Shown here: in pieces, positions 20,946 to 31,135 of the stretch
Layout of the letters: every line of letters starts with the position of its first letter
Numbering within the stretch: position 1 is the first letter of the stretch
Assembly: GCA_945865815.1 (NCBI GenBank)
Contig: CAMBFR010000010.1
Location: 1 to 62,626, forward strand
Source: Candidatus Sulfopaludibacter sp. SbA3
GTDB taxonomy: Bacteria; Acidobacteriota; Terriglobia; 20CM-2-55-15
Direction: 5' to 3'
Length of the DNA: 62,626 nucleotides
The notes under the pieces: model-generated
The model's database searches: none
The model's input: the letters and a program-made list of their open reading frames with translations, nothing else
Told to the model about the DNA's origin: nothing
Position numbers and translations under genes: made by a program

Positions 20946-21032
20946 AGCGATACTCCTAACTTCACCGGTAGGGGAGTCACTCTATCAGAACTCGCCGGAG
21001 CGAGAGCAAGCTTTTTTGTAGTGGTGGTATTC

Positions 21033-22019
21033 ATGGATAAAGAAATCTCCGTCCAGCGCCTTCGTAAGCACTACCAGGTGCACCAGAAGGAGGCGGGCTT
21101 TGCCGGCTCGCTCCGCGCCTTCTTCCGACGCCGCTATGAGTGGGTACGGGCCGTCGATGACATCTCGTTCCGCATTCCGCAGGGCGAGATTGTGGGGTTT
21201 CTCGGACCCAACGGCGCCGGTAAAACCACCACACTCAAGGTGTTGGCCGGATTGCTCTATCCGACCGCAGGCAGTGTTGCCGTTGGTGGATTCCAGCCAT
21301 TCGAGCGGAAGAACGAATTCCTCCGGCAAATCACGCTCGTCATGGGCCAGAAGAACCAGCTCATCTGGGACCTTCCGGCAATTGAATCCTTTGAAGTCAA
21401 CAGGGCCATCTACGAGATTTCTCGCGGAGACTACCTGGAGGCGCTGAAGGAGATGACCGAACTTCTCGACCTCGGGCCGGTACTGAAAAAGCAGGTCCGA
21501 AAGCTGTCGCTGGGCGAGCGCATGAAGTGCGAACTGGCTGCGGCCCTATTGCACCGTCCCCGAGTCCTGTTCCTGGACGAACCGACGATTGGCCTGGATG
21601 TGACGATGCAGGCGCGCATGCGTCAGTTCCTGATGGAATACAACCGCCGCCATGGCGCAACGATTCTTCTGACAAGTCACTACATGGCGGATGTCGTTGC
21701 GCTTTGCGAGCGGATACTGGTAATTGACCACGGGCGTCTCGTTTATGACGGTCTGCTGGGCGCGCTCGTCGAGCGGGTGGCTCCCTACAAGAACGTGCGG
21801 ATCGTTACCCGGCGGCCGATTCAGGCGGGCGAACTGGAGCCGTTCGGTGAAATCCTGTCGATCGATACCATGGAAGCGACTCTGATAGTTCCGCGCGACC
21901 GCACGTCGGCGGTCGCCGCCGAGTTGTTCCGTATATTGCCCATTGCCGATGTAACCATCGAAGACCCCGAGGCCGAAGAGATCATCCGGCGCATCTTTAC
22001 CGAAGGGATGCTGCCGTGA
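21033..22019 (+). CDS. ABC-2 type exporter ATP-binding protein (COG4586-like)
   Basis: This 328-residue ATPase has Walker A GPNGAGKTTT, a Q-loop region MGQKNQLIWDL, signature LSLGERMKCELAAALLHRP, Walker B VLFLDEPTIGLD and switch histidine SHYM. The N-terminal lead (HYQVHQKEAGFAGSLRAFFRRRYE) and NQLIWDLP are typical of the COG4586 group, which works with two membrane proteins encoded next to it. ATG 21033 is chosen over GTG 21021; neither has a strong ribosome site. Substrate is unknown. Confidence 0.88.
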   Translation: MDKEISVQRLRKHYQVHQKEAGFAGSLRAFFRRRYEWVRAVDDISFRIPQGEIVGFLGPNGAGKTTTLKVLAGLLYPTAGSVAVGGFQPFERKNEFLRQITLVMGQKNQLIWDLPAIESFEVNRAIYEISRGDYLEALKEMTELLDLGPVLKKQVRKLSLGERMKCELAAALLHRPRVLFLDEPTIGLDVTMQARMRQFLMEYNRRHGATILLTSHYMADVVALCERILVIDHGRLVYDGLLGALVERVAPYKNVRIVTRRPIQAGELEPFGEILSIDTMEATLIVPRDRTSAVAAELFRILPIADVTIEDPEAEEIIRRIFTEGMLP

Positions 22020-22810
22020 AGAACTTCTTCAAATTGGCGCTGGAGGTGCGTGCCGCGTGGCATCTGGCAATTGAGTACCGGATCGCCGTCTTCATCTGGA
22101 TGTTTTCGATGGCGCTTCCGCTGATCATGATGGCGGCCTGGCTGTCGATAGCTGAAGCCGGGCCGGTGGGCCGGTTCAACCGAGGGGACTTCATTGCCTA
22201 TTACGTGACTGCGGTGCTGATCCGGAATCTCACGGGAGTCTGGATCATTTGGGAGCAGGACGCCGATATTCGGCATGGGAACCTGTCGTTCAGGCTGCTC
22301 AAGCCCATGAATCCAATTCTCCACTACATCGCGGTAAGTTGGGGCTCGAAGCCGCTGCGTCTGCTCATCGTTGTTCCCATGGTCACGGTGGCCGCGTATG
22401 CGATTCCGGGAGTGGATTTTGTGAGCGATCCCCTGAAGTTCGCGCTTTTTATCGTATCCATCATCGCGACCTGGGCAATTCTCTTCCTGCTGCAATACAC
22501 CACGGGACTCCTGGGTTTCTGGATCACCCAGGCGACCAACATACACGACGTTTGGTTTGCCGTGTTTTCGCTCTGTTCCGGGTTCCTTATCCCACTGGAG
22601 TTGTTTCCTCCGGCCTTGCGCGCTCTGCTTTACTTGACGCCGTTCCCATACATGCTGTCGTTTCCTGCCGAGATATTCACGAACCAGTTGGAGATTTCAC
22701 AAATAGCGAGCGGCTTGGCCGTCCAGTGGACGTGGGTGGGAGCGTTTTATGGGTTGTATCGATTCGTGTGGTCGCGCGGCTTGAAACGATACAGCGCGGT
22801 CGGGGCGTAG
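22016..22810 (+). CDS. ABC-2 family permease (COG4587-like)
   Basis: This 264-residue integral membrane protein has about six helices and belongs to the ABC-2 family that pairs with COG4586 ATPases. It starts with GTG overlapping the ATPase stop by four bases (GTGA), which shows tight coupling. Motifs such as IRNLTGVWIIWEQDADIRHGNLSFRLLKPMNP (residues about 65-95) fit the cytoplasmic coupling loop of this group. It probably forms a heterodimeric channel with the next gene product. Confidence 0.82.
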   Translation: MKNFFKLALEVRAAWHLAIEYRIAVFIWMFSMALPLIMMAAWLSIAEAGPVGRFNRGDFIAYYVTAVLIRNLTGVWIIWEQDADIRHGNLSFRLLKPMNPILHYIAVSWGSKPLRLLIVVPMVTVAAYAIPGVDFVSDPLKFALFIVSIIATWAILFLLQYTTGLLGFWITQATNIHDVWFAVFSLCSGFLIPLELFPPALRALLYLTPFPYMLSFPAEIFTNQLEISQIASGLAVQWTWVGAFYGLYRFVWSRGLKRYSAVGA

Positions 22811-22816
22811 TAACCA

Positions 22817-23605
22817 ATGCGACGTTACCTGTATCTGCTTTTCATTTATTACCGAAGCGGCCTTCTGGCGGAAATGGAATACCGCACCAATCTTATTGCA
22901 AGCGTCGGCATGAGCGTCGTGTGGACAGCGTGGGTCGTGGGTGGCGTGACAATTTTTTACTATCATCGGGAAACACTCGGCGGCTGGACCTACAACCAGG
23001 TGCTCGTGGTCATGGGTTTGTGGAACATCTTCGGTGGGCTGATGAGCGTGATCCTGGCGCCGAATGTGCAGAGGATGGTAGAGCACATCCAGAAGGGAAC
23101 GCTCGACTTCCTGATCATCAAGCCCGCCAATAGCCAGTTCTTGGCGACCCTGACCGCCTGTTCACCTCTCAAGTCCCTCGACATTGTCTTTGGATTCGGT
23201 CTGATTGCCGCCGGGCTCTACCGCGACGGTTACTGGCCCAGCGCCGGGAATCTGGGGGTCTTCACTCTTATGCTGGTGTCGGGCGCAACGATGGCGTACT
23301 CGTTGTGGCTCCTGCTGGTGACGCTGGCGTTCTGGTTCGTGAGAGTTGACAACTTCACGGAAATTTTTTCCACATTTCTCGAGGCCGGCCGGTTTCCGGT
23401 TACTGTTTACCGCGGCTGGATCCGCTTTCTTCTCACTTTTATTGTCCCCATTGCCTTCCTAACCACTTTTCCCGCCGCAAGTCTCTTTGGTCAGCTTTCA
23501 CCGGTATATCCGGCAGTCTCAGTGGCGATTGCGCTCGTGCTGTTCCTGATTTCCAGGCGATTCTGGAATTACGCCATCCGGTTCTATTCCAGCGCCAGTT
23601 CATGA
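22817..23605 (+). CDS. ABC-2 family permease (COG3694-like)
   Basis: This 262-residue membrane protein has about six helices and is the second permease of the exporter. The stretch VEHIQKGTLDFLIIKPANSQF corresponds to the LLKP loop of the upstream permease, showing distant paralogy. It begins six bases after the previous gene. The ATPase-permease-permease trio is complete. Related systems are annotated only as general ABC-2 exporters, so the cargo is unknown. Confidence 0.82.
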   Translation: MRRYLYLLFIYYRSGLLAEMEYRTNLIASVGMSVVWTAWVVGGVTIFYYHRETLGGWTYNQVLVVMGLWNIFGGLMSVILAPNVQRMVEHIQKGTLDFLIIKPANSQFLATLTACSPLKSLDIVFGFGLIAAGLYRDGYWPSAGNLGVFTLMLVSGATMAYSLWLLLVTLAFWFVRVDNFTEIFSTFLEAGRFPVTVYRGWIRFLLTFIVPIAFLTTFPAASLFGQLSPVYPAVSVAIALVLFLISRRFWNYAIRFYSSASS

Positions 23606-23687
23606 TGATAAACAGGGCGCCGGCCCGTCTAATCCGCAGTCAGACCCGGTGGACAATTGCCTCAAAGCCGTTCTCTGTGTTTGACCT

Positions 23688-23693
23688 TATAAT
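23688..23693 (+). promoter_or_regulatory. Possible -10 (TATAAT) before the TPR gene
   Basis: A perfect TATAAT lies 26 bases before the ATG at 23719, and a GGAGGA ribosome site lies between. No good -35 at the right distance is seen, so this is a moderate candidate only. Confidence 0.4.
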
Positions 23694-23718
23694 CATCATT
23701 AAGGCAAATGGAGGATCT

Positions 23719-24339
23719 ATGCGAGTGTTGGCCGTTTTCGGGATCTTCATCATGGTACTGGCGGCTGCAGGCGGTTCGATGGCCTCCGCTCAGAGCCTTG
23801 AGCGCGGGATCGAGCTGTACAACACGTACAAGTACGCCGAGGCCGAGCGCGCTCTGTCGCAAGTAGCCGAAGCGGAACCGGACAATGTTCAGGCCCACGA
23901 GTATCTGGGTCTGGCGCTGCTGGGAGCAGGAAAGACCGCCGAGGCGGAGGCGGCTTTGAGCGAGGCGGAGAAGCTCGATCCGAACTCGGATTCCGTCAAG
24001 ATCGGGCTGGCCCGCGTGTTCATCGAAAGGAAACAGTTCGACCGCGCAGAGGCTGCCCTGCGAGAGGCCGCCGCGCTTAACAATGACAACGCCGAGGTTC
24101 CCCTTTACAGGGGCGCGATCAAGCTTGCCCAGCGAAACTATCAGGGCGCGGCCGACGATTTGACCAGCGCGGTGTCCCGGAACACGGATAACGCGTACGC
24201 GCACTACTACGCGGGGCTTGCGTGGAACGGTCTGCGGAAGCCGGACAAGATGATCGAAAGCTTTCAGACGTTTTTGAGGCTGGCGCCCGACGCTCCGGAA
24301 GCCGATCGTGTGAGATCGCTGCTGCGAAGCGTGCGTTAG
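23719..24339 (+). CDS. Secreted tetratricopeptide repeat protein
   Basis: This 206-residue protein has a signal peptide (residues 1-25, ending ASA) and about five TPR units, for example NVQAHEYLGLALLGAGKTAEAEAALSEAEKLDP (about residues 55-88). It is expected to be a periplasmic scaffold. The start is ATG 23719 because of the adjacent GGAGGA site and signal peptide; a longer in-frame reading to 23602 is rejected. It ends 22 bases before the TamB-BamA fusion gene, so a role in the same envelope process is possible but unproven. Confidence 0.82.
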   Translation: MRVLAVFGIFIMVLAAAGGSMASAQSLERGIELYNTYKYAEAERALSQVAEAEPDNVQAHEYLGLALLGAGKTAEAEAALSEAEKLDPNSDSVKIGLARVFIERKQFDRAEAALREAAALNNDNAEVPLYRGAIKLAQRNYQGAADDLTSAVSRNTDNAYAHYYAGLAWNGLRKPDKMIESFQTFLRLAPDAPEADRVRSLLRSVR

Positions 24340-24361: not shown

Positions 24362-27300
24362 ATGTCTGCCCGGAGAGTTCTTCGATTCTCAGCCATCCTG
24401 GCGGCCGGCGCGCTGCTGCTCACAGGACTGATTCTCGGGCTTCTTCACACGTCACCCGCCAAGCAATACATCCTGGCGGAAGCTCGCGCGGCCCTCGAGC
24501 GGCAGGGCATTCTCTTCGAGGCTTCCGGCCTGGACTACGATCTCTTTTCTCTGCGGTTCACTATCGCGGATCTGCGCATTCGAGCGGTCGCTGCTCCGGA
24601 TCTGCCTGAGCTTTTCAGAGCGGATCTGGCATCCGTGGATCTGCACCTCCTGGATCTGTTACGTGGCCGTTACCGGGTCCAATCCGCCGACATCCAGGCT
24701 CCCCGGATTCACTTCGTAACCGACGAGCAAGGCCGCACGAACCTTCCGGCCCCCGCATCGGAAAGCGCAGGAGAGCCGGCGGACTGGTTTGTGGACGTGC
24801 TTCGCGTTTCCGGCGGTTCTTTAACGGCTGAAGATCGCCGGAGGCACGTCGACGTTCGCTTGCCGGCCTGGCAGGCCACCGTGCAGGGCGATGAGGAGGG
24901 GGTTCGTGAAACTCTCACCTGGACTACGGATAGTCCGGGCGAGATCCGGCATCCGGGCGGCTCGATTCCCATTGATGCGGTTACTGCCGAGCTGGTCCTG
25001 GAGAAACGTGATAACCGCATCGATGTTCGTGATGTCCGCATTGCGAGCGGCGCGTCCGATCTCCAGGCGAGTGGCTCGATCCGCGACCTTGCCGCGCCCG
25101 TGCTGGACCTGACGACAAGCGGGACCGTCGCGCTTGCCGAGCTTGCGCGCATCCTCCGTCTCGGAGAAGCAATGTCTGGCGAACTGCGTGTTCAGGCCGC
25201 GGTCCGCGGCCCAGCCTCAAGCCCGGAGATCAGCGGCGGCATGGAAGGCGAAAGAATAGCGCTTCCTTTTCTGGGTGAATCGGGTGTTCAGGCACAGGCG
25301 TCGTACGACCTCGCGGCGAATCGTCTTCGCGTAAGCACTTTCGCGCTTCGGTCTCCCATGGCCTCCGCGGCCGGCAACGCCGATCTGGCGCTCGATTCCG
25401 CGGCCGGCGAGAGCCGCGTTGAGATAGGGCTGGAATCGGTCGAGTTCCGGCGGCTGACTCGGCTTCTGGATCTACCCATACCCATTACCGGTCAGGCGTC
25501 CGGAAGAGTCCGCGCCTCATGGCCGGGCCTTTCGTACCGTTCGCTTTCCGGAAACGGGCAGATCCGGCTTCGAGACGTCAACGCCACGGACGGCTCCATC
25601 AAAATCGTAAAGCTCGGCGGTCCACTGGACCTGGTGGTCCGAGAGGGAAGCATCAGGATCACGGCAAGCCCGTTGATCGCCGAAGGCGCGCGGATCGAGG
25701 GGGAGTTTGGGCTCTCGGCGCAAAACGCAGTCGATGGCAGTATCCGAATCGACTTGTCCGGCGCCGGCGCTGTATTAGAGGATGCGCCCGTTTCCGGAGC
25801 GCTATCGGCCACAATCCAGTTGGCCGGAACGCTGACCCGGCCGTTGATCGAAGCTCGCCTCGAGGCGCCGGCGCTTTCTTATGGCGGGATTGATGGCATC
25901 CGGATTGAAGCCGCGGCTCATTACGCGTCAGACGTAATCGACATTGACGAGGCCTTTGTACGCTGGCAAGGCCAGACGCTGGAAACGCGAGGCCGGATTG
26001 CGTTTGCAGGGGAAAGTTCCAGCCTGGATATTGCGGTCGAATTGCCGGACGCGGCGCTTGGGCCGGTGCTCGCCGGAATTCCTGACCTGAACATTCCCGC
26101 CACCGGCCGGATCAGCGCCTCGGCCGCGGTCACGGGGACCATTGAGAATCCACTGGTCCGTCTCCAACTGCGGACGGCCGGCCTTGAGGCATACAACGAA
26201 CCCCTGGGCACGCTTTCAGCGGAAGCCCGATTCGAGAACGAAACTATCTATCTCGATAACATCGTTTTGAACCACGATGAGGGTTCGCTTCGGGCCGATG
26301 GCCGTTTGGATGTCGTCTCCCGGAACTATGACCTGAACGTTGAAGGCCGCGGCCTTAAACTCTGGCATTTTGTGTCACCCGAAGGCTTTCCCGTTCGGGG
26401 AACAATCGCCCTCGCGGGGCGCGTTCACGGGACACTCGCCGATCCCGAAGCGTCGTTGCGGATTGAAGCTGCCGGGCTGCGAGTTCAGGATCACGACCTG
26501 GGTGATCTCGGTGCAGACGTCACCGTGTCCGGGCGATCCGCAGCGATCGAAGCCACTCTGCCGTCCTTTGGAAGCACAGCAAACGCATCGATCCGAATCG
26601 ATCGGCCGTTTTCCACGGAGTTTACCCTTCGAACAAACGACGTCGACATTTCGCGGCTTCTATTAGAGCCGAATATGGATCTGGCGGGAAGAGTCACGGC
26701 AACGATCACCGGCAACGGCCCACTTGCCGATTCGAGCGCGATGCAACTGCTCGCGCGGATTGAGCCGTTGGATCTCCGATGGATGGGGCGCAGCGTCACT
26801 AGCGATGGACCGATTGCAGTTGAACTCGCGAACGGCAACCTGACCGTTCGCGAACTCTCACTCCGCACCGCGAACTCGACGGCGCGGCTGGCCGGCTCAT
26901 TCCCGCTGACAAATACGGCGATGCCGGGAAATCTCGGGATCGACGTTGACGCGCGGCTTGAGGACCTGCTTCAGTTCCTGGCCGGGGAAGAGGACGCCGG
27001 TGTGAACTCGCCGCCACAGGTGGAGGGAAGGCTTGGCGTCCACGCGAACCTCCGAGGATATTCGAAGTCGATCGAAGCGAGTGGGGACATCACTGTCGAC
27101 AACGCGACGATCGCGGCCGGCGTATTACCTGCACCGCTGACGAACGTCAACTTGAAGGCCACGATGGCAGATGGCAAGCTGGAACTCGAACGGCTTACCG
27201 GCGCCTGGGGATCGGCCATTATCGAAGCTCGCGGGAACCTGCCGCTGTCACTGATCGTTCCATCACTTCCAGTTGCGTTGAGCGAGTCTGCGCGTCCGTC

Positions 27301-30300
27301 ACATTTTTCCGCGGAGATTCGAGATTTCAGACTTTCCTCGCTTCCCAACGTTCCCGAGGGCGTCGACGGTACGATGTCGATGCGAATGGAGGCTGACGCT
27401 CCGTCGGGTGACCTGAAAGCGCTGACCGCTGCCGTGGCGTTTCCCGATCTGCGATTGCGGGTGGGCAGTTACGAAATCCAGCAAGCTGGAACGTCGTCGC
27501 TCGAAATTCACGATGGCCTTGTGAACATTCGCCAGATGGAGTTCACCGGTCCCGAAACGCGCCTTCGGGTTACGGGTAACGCGGGCATCCGGAATTCAAT
27601 GGCTGCCGACCTGCTGCTTGAAGGCAATGCGGATGCGTCCATACTCAAGTTATTCACGAGAGACTTTCCAATCTCTGGAAACACGGAGGTTCGGCTGACG
27701 GCGCGGGGAAGTCTGCTCGAACCCGGCCTGGACGGATTCCTCGACATGACAAACGGACAGCTCGCGCTCGCGGAGCCCCGCGTGAACGTCGAGAACCTGA
27801 GGATGCGACTGGAACTGGCGGACAACCGGCTGACGCTGGCCCGGCTTGAGGGCGCGCTCAACGGCGGCGCGATGACGGGCGAAGGCGGCGCCACGCTGTC
27901 CGCCGCGGGAATCGATTCGGTACAGATGAAACTTGAATCCAGGGGGTTCTATCTGGAATTTCCCGAAGGCGTGCGGACCGTTTCCAATGCGGATGTAACC
28001 GTCACCGGGAACACTCAAGCACTCACGTTTTCGGGAAATGTAGACATCCTGGAAGGATCCTACAACCAGCCCCTGGCCATCGAGCGCAGCGTGTTCGGGT
28101 ATTTTTCGAATCGGCCGGCGCCGAGCGTCGTGGCGTCCGATTCGAATCTCGACTGGCTTCGAATGAACATCGGACTGCGGACACGGACTCCGCTGGCAGT
28201 CGAGACCGATTTCGCGCGCGGCAGCGTCACTGCGGATCTCCAGTTGCGCGGCTCGGCGGCCAGGCCCGGTATCACAGGCCGTATCGTTGTAGACGAAGGC
28301 GCCGAGCTTACGCTTCGCGAACGGACCTACCTGGTGGAACGCGGTGTGGTCAGTTTCACCAACGAGCGGGAGATCGAGCCTGTGCTGGATGTGATTGCAA
28401 GAACCAAGGTTCCAGGCTACGAGATCACGATGCAAGTCCAGAGCGATGCAGGCCGAAGGATCACCACCACGCTGACCTCGGAGCCGCCTTTGCCGGAAAC
28501 GGATATCGTCGCGGTCCTGGCGACGGGCCGAACGTTGTCGGAAGCGCAGTCGGCCGGAGTTGAAATCGCCAAGGAACAACTGCTCTCTTATCTGGCGGGA
28601 GGCCTTGGAGGCGGGCTGACTCAACAGGCGGGCCGCGCGATTGGGTTGAGCCAGCTCCAGATTGAGCCGAGTCTGATCGCCTCCGAGGCGGAGCCCACGG
28701 CGCGCCTCACGGTCGGCAAAAAATTCACGCCACAGCTCAACTTCGTTTACTCCATGAACCTGCGCAACAGCAGCGACCAGATCTGGATCGGCGAGTACGA
28801 TATCGCTCGCCGGTTCTCGACCCGGGCGCTTCGCCAGAACGACAACACGTACCGGTTCCAGTTCCAGCACAATCTGTTTTTCGGCGGTCTCGGCGAAGAC
28901 AACACCGACGGCCGCAACGCCGTTCCACCAAAGAGGATTGGCGCCATCCGGTTCTTCGGTGACATGCAATTCTCCGAGCCGGAGCTTCGCAGAGTCTCCG
29001 GCCTGGAACCCGGAAAACCAGACGACTTTTTCTCGGCGCGCCGCGCGCTCGACCGGATCCGCGAACACTACTCTTCGGCGGGATTTCTCGAAGCACGGAT
29101 ATCTCTGACTCGAACCGAAAACGGATCAATCGTGGATCTGCGTTTCGATCTGCAAGAGGGCCCGCGCGTTGAAATGGTTTATGAAGGCTGGAATGTATCC
29201 GGGGAAACGAAGCAGAAGATAAACAGACAATGGGAGTCTGTTCCTATCGACGCGCTCCGTCTGCAGGATGCGATTGCGCTGATCGAAAGTGAGATGGCGC
29301 AGAGCGGCTATCTCCGGGCCGGCGTTGAAACGGAGATTGCCGAAACTGCGGATAGCAAGCGCGTCTTGTTCAGCATTCAGCCCGGCATTCATCACGAGAG
29401 TTTTGCGGCGGCGTTCGAGGGTGCGAATTTCATTCGAGCATCGGATCTGGGAGAACTCCTGGAGCGCGCGGGATATATGGAGCGGCTCCATTCCAGCGGA
29501 GCCGAGGCCTCCCGGTTCATCCAGCAGCACTATGTTGCCATGGGATTCCTCGAAGCCGCCGTGGCCGAACCGCAATATGAACTGGACCTGGAATCCGGCA
29601 GCAGCCGCCTGGTGTTCCCGGTTACGGAGGGCCCGCAGTACCACTTCGGCGAAATTGTATTCTCGGGCAATCGCGTGTTCAGCGAAGGCGCTCTTCGCAG
29701 GATACCGGCCATGGTTGAGCCGGACCAGGCCGCCTCCGCCGAAGCCGTGGAGAGTGCGAGAGCAGCCGTTGAAAGTTACTACCAGGATGAGGGTTTCAAC
29801 GACGTCGTGGTTCAGTACCGCTTCAGTCCCGACAAGGAGAGACGTGTCGCGGATGTGACCTTTGAGGTGGAGGAAAACCGGCGTCGCGTGCTCGATAGCA
29901 TTCAGGTTCAAGGCAACGACAACACAAGCGGTCAGATGATCGCTTCCCAAATCGGTTTGAGTGCGGGAGATCCGGTGAGCGGCAGCAAGCTGGCGCAGGC
30001 CCGGAGCGGTCTGTACGGCACCGGCGCTTTCTCTCTTGTGGATATCGACGTATTGCCTAAGCCGGACCAGACGGGCGCGGCGGCCGGTGATGTTGCGGTT
30101 ACCCTGGTCGTGCGCGTGCGTGAAGTTCCCCCGTTCGAGCTGCGGTACGGCGGGTTTTACGACACGGAGCGCGGCATGGGCGGCATTGCGGATTTCGTGA
30201 GCCACAACGTGCTTGGTGGGGCAAGAACCGCCGGCCTGCGCACCCGGTACGACTCGGATCTGCGTGAAGTCCGCGGGTACTTCAGCCAGCCCCCGCTGGG

Positions 30301-31135
30301 GCGGCTGCCGTTGAAATCCGTGGCTGCGGTGTTCTTCCGCCGTGAGTCGGAGACGGATTTTCTGACGGATCGCAAAGGCTTTTCCGGGAACGCGGAATAC
30401 CGCCTCGGGGACAAGAATACAGTTGGCGCCGGTTATCGCCTGGAGTGGGTTCACACCTACGACAAGATTCCGGACCCATTGTTCCCGTTCGACGTGCGGC
30501 TGCGCGTGGCGCCGCTGACCGGCAGCTTTACGAGGGATACTCGCGACGACACTCTCGATGCAACGCGCGGCAAGCTCATGTCCCATACGCTGGAATGGAC
30601 TCCGGGGGTTCTGGGCTCCGAACTGCGTTACGTGAAGTATTTCGGCCAGTATTTCCACTATGTGCCGTTCGGCCGGGCTTCCCAAATCCCCTGGGTGGGC
30701 GGCGCGCGGAACCGCATCGTGTATGCGGTGGGAGGCCGTGTGGGGCTGGCGCACGGTTTCGACGGACAATCCATTGCTCCCAGTGAGCGTTTCTTTTCCG
30801 GGGGCGGGACAACGATCCGTGGCTTCGATCAAAACGCGCTCGGCCCGCTGGATTTCGAGGGCCAAGCCACCGGCGGTAATGCTGTGCTGATACTGAACAA
30901 CGAATTCCGTTTTCCGGTTTATGGATTCGTGGACGGTGTGGGTTTCCTCGATGCCGGCAACGTGTACCGCCGCGTCGAAGACCTCACGCTGTCGGGACTC
31001 CGCACTTCCGCCGGCGCCGGTCTGCGGATCCGCACACCGTACGCCCTCATTCGCCTGGACTATGGAGTGAACGTGCGTCCTCGCCCAGGAGAACCCCGCG
31101 GTAAATTTTTCTTCAGCATCGGGCAGGCGTTTTGA
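24362..31135 (+). CDS. TamB-like / five-POTRA Omp85 (BamA-like) fusion protein
   Basis: This single uninterrupted frame of 2257 residues joins two proteins that are normally separate. Residues 9-28 form an N-terminal membrane anchor. Residues about 35-1510 are repetitive beta-strand sequence of the AsmA/TamB type, ending in the conserved TamB C-terminal region (LTVGKKFTPQLNFVYSMNL). Then come five POTRA-like domains at roughly 1525-1599, 1600-1676, 1677-1758, 1759-1838 and 1839-1922. The 16-strand-type barrel (about 1923-2257) carries the Omp85 loop-6 motif IRGF (R2153) in GGGTTIRGFDQNALGP, and it ends in a terminal phenylalanine. In other bacteria TamB is anchored in the inner membrane and its C-terminus docks on the POTRA of TamA or BamA. 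Here the docking partners are covalently linked. Expected role: outer-membrane protein or lipid delivery. Confidence 0.92.
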   Translation: MSARRVLRFSAILAAGALLLTGLILGLLHTSPAKQYILAEARAALERQGILFEASGLDYDLFSLRFTIADLRIRAVAAPDLPELFRADLASVDLHLLDLLRGRYRVQSADIQAPRIHFVTDEQGRTNLPAPASESAGEPADWFVDVLRVSGGSLTAEDRRRHVDVRLPAWQATVQGDEEGVRETLTWTTDSPGEIRHPGGSIPIDAVTAELVLEKRDNRIDVRDVRIASGASDLQASGSIRDLAAPVLDLTTSGTVALAELARILRLGEAMSGELRVQAAVRGPASSPEISGGMEGERIALPFLGESGVQAQASYDLAANRLRVSTFALRSPMASAAGNADLALDSAAGESRVEIGLESVEFRRLTRLLDLPIPITGQASGRVRASWPGLSYRSLSGNGQIRLRDVNATDGSIKIVKLGGPLDLVVREGSIRITASPLIAEGARIEGEFGLSAQNAVDGSIRIDLSGAGAVLEDAPVSGALSATIQLAGTLTRPLIEARLEAPALSYGGIDGIRIEAAAHYASDVIDIDEAFVRWQGQTLETRGRIAFAGESSSLDIAVELPDAALGPVLAGIPDLNIPATGRISASAAVTGTIENPLVRLQLRTAGLEAYNEPLGTLSAEARFENETIYLDNIVLNHDEGSLRADGRLDVVSRNYDLNVEGRGLKLWHFVSPEGFPVRGTIALAGRVHGTLADPEASLRIEAAGLRVQDHDLGDLGADVTVSGRSAAIEATLPSFGSTANASIRIDRPFSTEFTLRTNDVDISRLLLEPNMDLAGRVTATITGNGPLADSSAMQLLARIEPLDLRWMGRSVTSDGPIAVELANGNLTVRELSLRTANSTARLAGSFPLTNTAMPGNLGIDVDARLEDLLQFLAGEEDAGVNSPPQVEGRLGVHANLRGYSKSIEASGDITVDNATIAAGVLPAPLTNVNLKATMADGKLELERLTGAWGSAIIEARGNLPLSLIVPSLPVALSESARPSHFSAEIRDFRLSSLPNVPEGVDGTMSMRMEADAPSGDLKALTAAVAFPDLRLRVGSYEIQQAGTSSLEIHDGLVNIRQMEFTGPETRLRVTGNAGIRNSMAADLLLEGNADASILKLFTRDFPISGNTEVRLTARGSLLEPGLDGFLDMTNGQLALAEPRVNVENLRMRLELADNRLTLARLEGALNGGAMTGEGGATLSAAGIDSVQMKLESRGFYLEFPEGVRTVSNADVTVTGNTQALTFSGNVDILEGSYNQPLAIERSVFGYFSNRPAPSVVASDSNLDWLRMNIGLRTRTPLAVETDFARGSVTADLQLRGSAARPGITGRIVVDEGAELTLRERTYLVERGVVSFTNEREIEPVLDVIARTKVPGYEITMQVQSDAGRRITTTLTSEPPLPETDIVAVLATGRTLSEAQSAGVEIAKEQLLSYLAGGLGGGLTQQAGRAIGLSQLQIEPSLIASEAEPTARLTVGKKFTPQLNFVYSMNLRNSSDQIWIGEYDIARRFSTRALRQNDNTYRFQFQHNLFFGGLGEDNTDGRNAVPPKRIGAIRFFGDMQFSEPELRRVSGLEPGKPDDFFSARRALDRIREHYSSAGFLEARISLTRTENGSIVDLRFDLQEGPRVEMVYEGWNVSGETKQKINRQWESVPIDALRLQDAIALIESEMAQSGYLRAGVETEIAETADSKRVLFSIQPGIHHESFAAAFEGANFIRASDLGELLERAGYMERLHSSGAEASRFIQQHYVAMGFLEAAVAEPQYELDLESGSSRLVFPVTEGPQYHFGEIVFSGNRVFSEGALRRIPAMVEPDQAASAEAVESARAAVESYYQDEGFNDVVVQYRFSPDKERRVADVTFEVEENRRRVLDSIQVQGNDNTSGQMIASQIGLSAGDPVSGSKLAQARSGLYGTGAFSLVDIDVLPKPDQTGAAAGDVAVTLVVRVREVPPFELRYGGFYDTERGMGGIADFVSHNVLGGARTAGLRTRYDSDLREVRGYFSQPPLGRLPLKSVAAVFFRRESETDFLTDRKGFSGNAEYRLGDKNTVGAGYRLEWVHTYDKIPDPLFPFDVRLRVAPLTGSFTRDTRDDTLDATRGKLMSHTLEWTPGVLGSELRYVKYFGQYFHYVPFGRASQIPWVGGARNRIVYAVGGRVGLAHGFDGQSIAPSERFFSGGGTTIRGFDQNALGPLDFEGQATGGNAVLILNNEFRFPVYGFVDGVGFLDAGNVYRRVEDLTLSGLRTSAGAGLRIRTPYALIRLDYGVNVRPRPGEPRGKFFFSIGQAF

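Follow-up and report, generated by a model that had tools for sequence, protein, structure and literature searches.

Can TamB and its outer-membrane Omp85 partner be made as one polypeptide, and what kind of machine would such a molecule be? This question is raised by a gene present in the 62,626 bp stretch of DNA from Candidatus Sulfopaludibacter sp. SbA3 that was analysed here, and to which we refer as the window. In agreement with an initial annotation, which had noted 2257 uninterrupted codons at this position, the gene (24362..31135; this gene and all its features are on the + strand) starts with an ATG, lacks internal stops and encodes a fused TamB-Omp85 protein of 2257 residues. We consider it likely that this protein is a single-chain TAM, in which TamB and a TamA-side Omp85 partner would be translated as one polypeptide.

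The modules expected for such a protein were all found, and in Pfam searches the TamB, POTRA and Omp85 domains scored far above the cut-offs of the respective models. Residues 6-31 (24377..24454) constitute the sole hydrophobic segment of the protein, which indicates a single N-terminal membrane helix; AlphaFold models a helix at residues 3-28, and the segment is predicted to be an inner-membrane signal-anchor, in line with the N-terminal membrane anchor noted initially. It is followed by a TamB/AsmA-like beta-groove (residues 50-1375; 24509..28486). The AlphaFold model of residues 1-1190 displays, after the helix, near-unbroken beta structure with a mean pLDDT of 83, and residues 50-1430 show the two-residue hydrophobic alternation typical of amphipathic beta-strands (z = 11 versus shuffles). 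The nearest structures that Foldseek retrieved from the PDB for this N-terminal part are the lipid-groove proteins ApoB100, LptD and Vps13, and these matches are taken as supporting evidence only because their TM-scores are low. The TamB domain PF04357 covers residues 1162-1500 (27845..28861; E 2.4e-34; 119.7 bits against a curated cut-off of 22.4). The C-terminal domain of TamB, modelled with low confidence (pLDDT 27-68, here and around the junction), consists of helices at residues 1379-1441 and five strands at residues 1448-1507 (28496..28882). Together, the PF04357 match and the groove model bear out the TamB-type beta sequence seen in the initial annotation, with its end now refined to about residue 1503.

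The C-terminal part also conforms to what had been read from the sequence. In the AlphaFold model of residues 1162-2257, five domains with the beta-alpha-alpha-beta-beta order of POTRAs precede 16 barrel strands: POTRA1 (residues 1525-1598; 28934..29155), POTRA2 (1602-1673; 29165..29380), POTRA3 (1680-1755; 29399..29626), POTRA4 (1761-1837; 29642..29872), which is also recognised by Pfam, and POTRA5 (1841-1921; 29882..30124). Pfam matched POTRA model PF07244 to three stretches (E 7.5e-31). The Omp85 barrel spans residues 1925-2257 (30134..31132) and matches PF01103 over residues 1949-2257 (E 9.7e-41); it contains the IRGF motif (residues 2152-2155; 30815-30826) and ends in Phe, both of which had been pointed out initially. 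Foldseek related this part to BamA (TMt about 0.5-0.6) and to TamA (8us1; TMt 0.73), and in a sequence search of the PDB the BamA entries ranked first.

The two halves are joined at residues 1504-1526 (28871..28939), a linker that leads from the last TamB strand to POTRA1. The TamB portion of the fusion closes with YRFQFQH, which is the place where unfused TamB proteins of relatives stop (for example ...YALEVRKRHAF and ...LDLKFRTRFR). The fusions retain the equivalent TamB C-terminal stretch (ARLTVGKKFTPQLNFVYSMNLRNSSDQIWIGEYDIARRFSTRALRQNDNTYRFQFQH), which is followed by a polar linker and immediately thereafter by POTRA1. Across 50 fusions the linker is 20-38 residues long (median 22; about 22 in the protein of the window), and its sequence is variable between conserved flanks. 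No signal peptide was seen before POTRA1 of the fusions, though a separate Omp85 needs one, nor did any internal start near the junction carry an export signal. Production of a separate Omp85 from an internal start is thereby rejected. GC3 is equal in the TamB and Omp85 halves of the gene.

TamB family proteins bind phospholipids in a U-shaped groove. In the working that we propose for a single-chain TAM, the N-terminal helix would be placed in the inner membrane, and the beta-groove would cross the periplasm and form a hydrophobic slide for phospholipids, perhaps serving also as a scaffold for outer-membrane proteins. A separate BAM would insert the POTRA-barrel end into the outer membrane, and the covalent link would set a 1:1 stoichiometry and take the place of partner finding. 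By analogy, the fusion most likely works in lipid transfer and in the assembly of outer-membrane proteins, because it retains all TAM parts.

How the tethered TamB end would dock is less straightforward. Cryo-EM of TamA-TamB has revealed that parts of TamB other than its C-terminal strand contact POTRAs 1-3 of TamA and that, in one of two states, strand 1 of the TamA barrel is paired with the final strand of TamB, TamB strands 3-6 being inside the barrel lumen (PMC12800296). The initial annotation had placed the junction exactly at the TamB-POTRA contact. Its position just past the natural TamB C-terminus was upheld, but since the C-terminal strand of TamB meets barrel strand 1, the fusion point is not simply the TamA-TamB contact (PMC12800296). 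In the fusion the last TamB strand has no free end, and about 22 residues further on begins POTRA1, which of all five POTRAs is the most distant from the barrel. With a tether of this length, strand-exchange docking of the E. coli type may be hard to reach. Either the POTRA arm would fold back to give a hybrid barrel in cis, or docking would occur in another way, or the chain would be cut. We tentatively put forward an uncleaved polypeptide present in both membranes that would be the sole complete TAM of many Acidobacteriota and would act through tethered docking or a cis hybrid barrel, without an E. coli-style exchange of a free C-terminus with its own barrel.

The last of these options would make the fusion a precursor that is cut at the linker in the periplasm, yielding an ordinary two-protein TAM, the fusion serving only co-expression and export. 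Such a cut would free the C-terminal strand of TamB, like the strand used for the hybrid barrel of E. coli (PMC12800296), and would agree with a variable, polar linker between conserved flanks and with a barrel half that lacks its own export signal. However, no conserved cleavage motif was seen in the linkers of the fusions, and there is no need under cleavage for their rather constant length. We regard processing of this kind as unlikely.

The single-chain TAM that we favour implies that the barrel half belongs to the TamA side, and it had been labelled BamA-type initially. This label holds for the architecture (five POTRAs and a 16-strand barrel) but not for descent. In a tree of Omp85 halves from the window's class, the fusions form one clade that is sister to the split TAM-type Omp85 proteins of the class, and canonical BamA is placed apart from both, as it is in the phylum tree. 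Upon addition of phylum members to the Omp85 tree the fusions fall into two clades and the split forms into one, which meet at a base that is not resolved, and a single clade of all fusions, with BamA as root, was not rejected (p-AU 0.39); the branch of EcTamA is very long, and its exact position is unsure. The TamB halves group in the same way as the Omp85 halves. In a tree of the concatenated halves, one branch with 98% support parts fused from split forms. Because the half-trees are congruent and this branch separates the two forms, the phylogenies point to few and old fusion events and to halves that have travelled together. Judged from these trees, the barrel half is of TamA-side ancestry, and descent from BamA is rejected. 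Heinz and co-workers, who surveyed the evolution of the TAM, had identified a second BamA-like protein of Acidobacteria as the likely root of TamA (PMC4494059).

A fusion of BamA itself to TamB, that is, a merged BAM-TAM chain along the lines of the hybrid of BamA and TamB that has been proposed for Borrelia, would fit the five POTRAs, the PDB sequence search and the fact that the best NCBIfam match of the fusion is the BamA model TIGR03303 (246.4 bits, under the cut-off of 297.15; 340.9 bits, above the cut-off, in the relative L103). It is nevertheless very improbable. In addition to the position of the barrel half in the trees, the genome contains a separate canonical BamA (contig C40) that reaches 524 bits and clears the cut-off. 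Moreover, TIGR03303 does not discriminate BamA from TAM-type proteins, because the split TAM-type Omp85 of the window's genome also scores above the cut-off; annotation is consequently likely to call such proteins BamA. The number of POTRAs is likewise uninformative on descent from BamA, since Pfam recognises at least six POTRA stretches in this split Omp85 (L011:5759-8470), a number that exceeds those of BamA and of the fused form. The NCBIfam equivalog models for TamA and TamB, both narrow, score the fusion below their cut-offs (79.7 versus 625 and 75.7 versus 825 bits, respectively).

The split omp85-tamB pair to which this Omp85 belongs (contig C9) represents, for both halves, the nearest unfused relatives of the fusion within the class. 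Its genes are separate and in the order omp85 then tamB, opposite to that of the fusion, as is the case for split pairs of the class. Read-through of this pair as the source of the fused gene is rejected, given this order and the fact that the pair is sister and not parent. Another arrangement is found in genomes of family f37 (G324, G449, G470 and G613; loci L118-L121), where tamB is located directly upstream of omp85 in an operon with nearly abutting genes. This operon shares gene order and TAM-side clade with the fusion, but it consists of two frames with a stop and clusters with the split forms, away from the fusions; it could be a model for an arrangement able to fuse. The same genomes also carry one or two fused copies elsewhere.

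The fused frame is conserved well beyond the window. An independent assembly from the same genus (G001:C165) has the same frame arrangement and is 73% identical across the junction. When public genome contigs were scanned with patterns derived from the window's class, 37 loci were retrieved, all from Acidobacteriota, and a single frame crosses the junction in all 36 that are informative there, among them that of the nearly complete genome AP025252.1 of Bryobacterales bacterium F-183. Breaks of the frame occur in five loci (L054, L056, L059, L072 and L075), inside TamB or the barrel and never at the junction. In L054 (2441-9237) the TamB part is divided halfway along the groove by a stop that overlaps a start, which is either a frameshift or a real split, while TamB and Omp85 are still fused at the junction. 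An assembly chimera or a stop codon lost in one genome, of which a draft genome of 193 contigs might be suspected, is rejected with next to no residual probability by the intact junction in the same-genus assembly, the 36 public loci, and near-complete and single-contig genomes. Thus, the two outcomes that would have spoken against the initial annotation did not materialise: there is no sign of misassembly, and relatives are not all split, the frame being intact in dozens of other genomes without a conserved stop.

The fusion occurs in at least 80 of the 396 genomes of a phylum sample (counted at a strict threshold and tallied by hand from the result table). These genomes represent about 30 families, and in most cases the fused gene is a single frame of 2000-2450 residues. 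Of 20 phylum loci that were fetched and read, 16 are fused (1964-2539 residues), including that of the single-contig genome G353. The fusion is a phylum-wide form and not the oddity of a single genome. Within the window's class it is present in 16 of 299 genomes, in three families only, and is patchy even within genera. Three genomes (G474, G555 and G634) have two different fused copies each.

Outside the class, 10 of 22 fusion-bearing genomes lack any TamB match besides the fusion, and the fusion-bearing genomes checked there also hold a separate Omp85 of BamA size, not all of these being typed. Since it is the sole TamB match beside such an Omp85, some Acidobacteriota appear to have the fusion as their TAM. 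The window's genome has the fusion, the canonical BamA and the split pair; in view of the split pair, the role of the fused copy in this organism may be a specialised one.

The fusion is immediately preceded by a gene for a secreted TPR protein (23602..24339, + strand; likely start 23719; TPR match), in which no lipobox is evident. The gene is conserved beside the fusion in class-level relatives, with a match at 28 loci, and in the window's class the gap between them is usually 5-50 bases. Mainly within this class, it is the only conserved functional neighbour found across the phylum. The most promising candidate partner of the fusion is the TPR protein, which would perhaps act in the manner of BamD. 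Both genes form a tight operon with those of an ABC-2 family transporter, an ATPase and two PF06182 permeases (21021-23605). The adjacent permease, 88% identical, also neighbours the fusion in the same-genus genome; past the genus, neither the ABC-2 transporter nor the glutamate dehydrogenase and GcpE genes were shared as neighbours. At one locus, in G470, a gene for an MlaD/MCE-domain protein (L122:9555-11015, - strand) is located upstream of the fusion, which hints at a possible link to phospholipid transport.

Compared with the TAM of proteobacteria, the fusion shares the inner-membrane helix, the beta-groove, the helices and strands of the TamB C-terminal domain, the POTRAs and the 16-strand barrel. 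It differs in being one chain with TamB first, whereas E. coli has two proteins and the gene order tamA-tamB, and in having five POTRAs where proteobacterial TamA has three (PMC12800296). In Borrelia, too, TamB has an Omp85 as its direct partner, which is of the BamA kind, and a hybrid barrel has been proposed from models (PMC13382580, PMC11361582), but the two are separate proteins and the partner is BamA itself. WD40-Omp85 proteins join an Omp85 to a domain resembling a BAM partner, which is a BamB-like propeller without TamB (PMC4104836). The long MlaD of Veillonella offers a precedent, by analogy, for a single chain that would span both membranes: its inner-membrane helix and its outer-membrane barrel at the C-terminus are parts of one polypeptide, which forms a lipid bridge across the envelope (PMC10665443). 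This protein is, however, an MCE hexamer, its barrel is small, with 10 strands, and its domains are unrelated (PMC10665443).

The initial annotation knew of no described system of this form. In agreement, our search of the open-licence literature yielded no description of TamB fused to an Omp85, which is not proof of absence, and such a fusion does not appear in the TAM survey of Heinz and colleagues (PMC4494059). Each module of the fusion is a TAM module, and its function is probably that of a TAM as well. The way in which TamB makes contact with its partner in the outer membrane is currently debated, as is whether TamB really forms an uninterrupted lipid bridge. A fusion that occurs naturally fixes both stoichiometry and orientation, with the inner-membrane end of TamB first and the POTRA-barrel end last; it makes the need for a free TamB C-terminus testable and gives structural studies a target that consists of one chain. 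Its existence supports the view that TamB and the TAM-type Omp85 of Acidobacteriota act as one machine, which in this poorly studied phylum would take the form of a widespread transenvelope protein.
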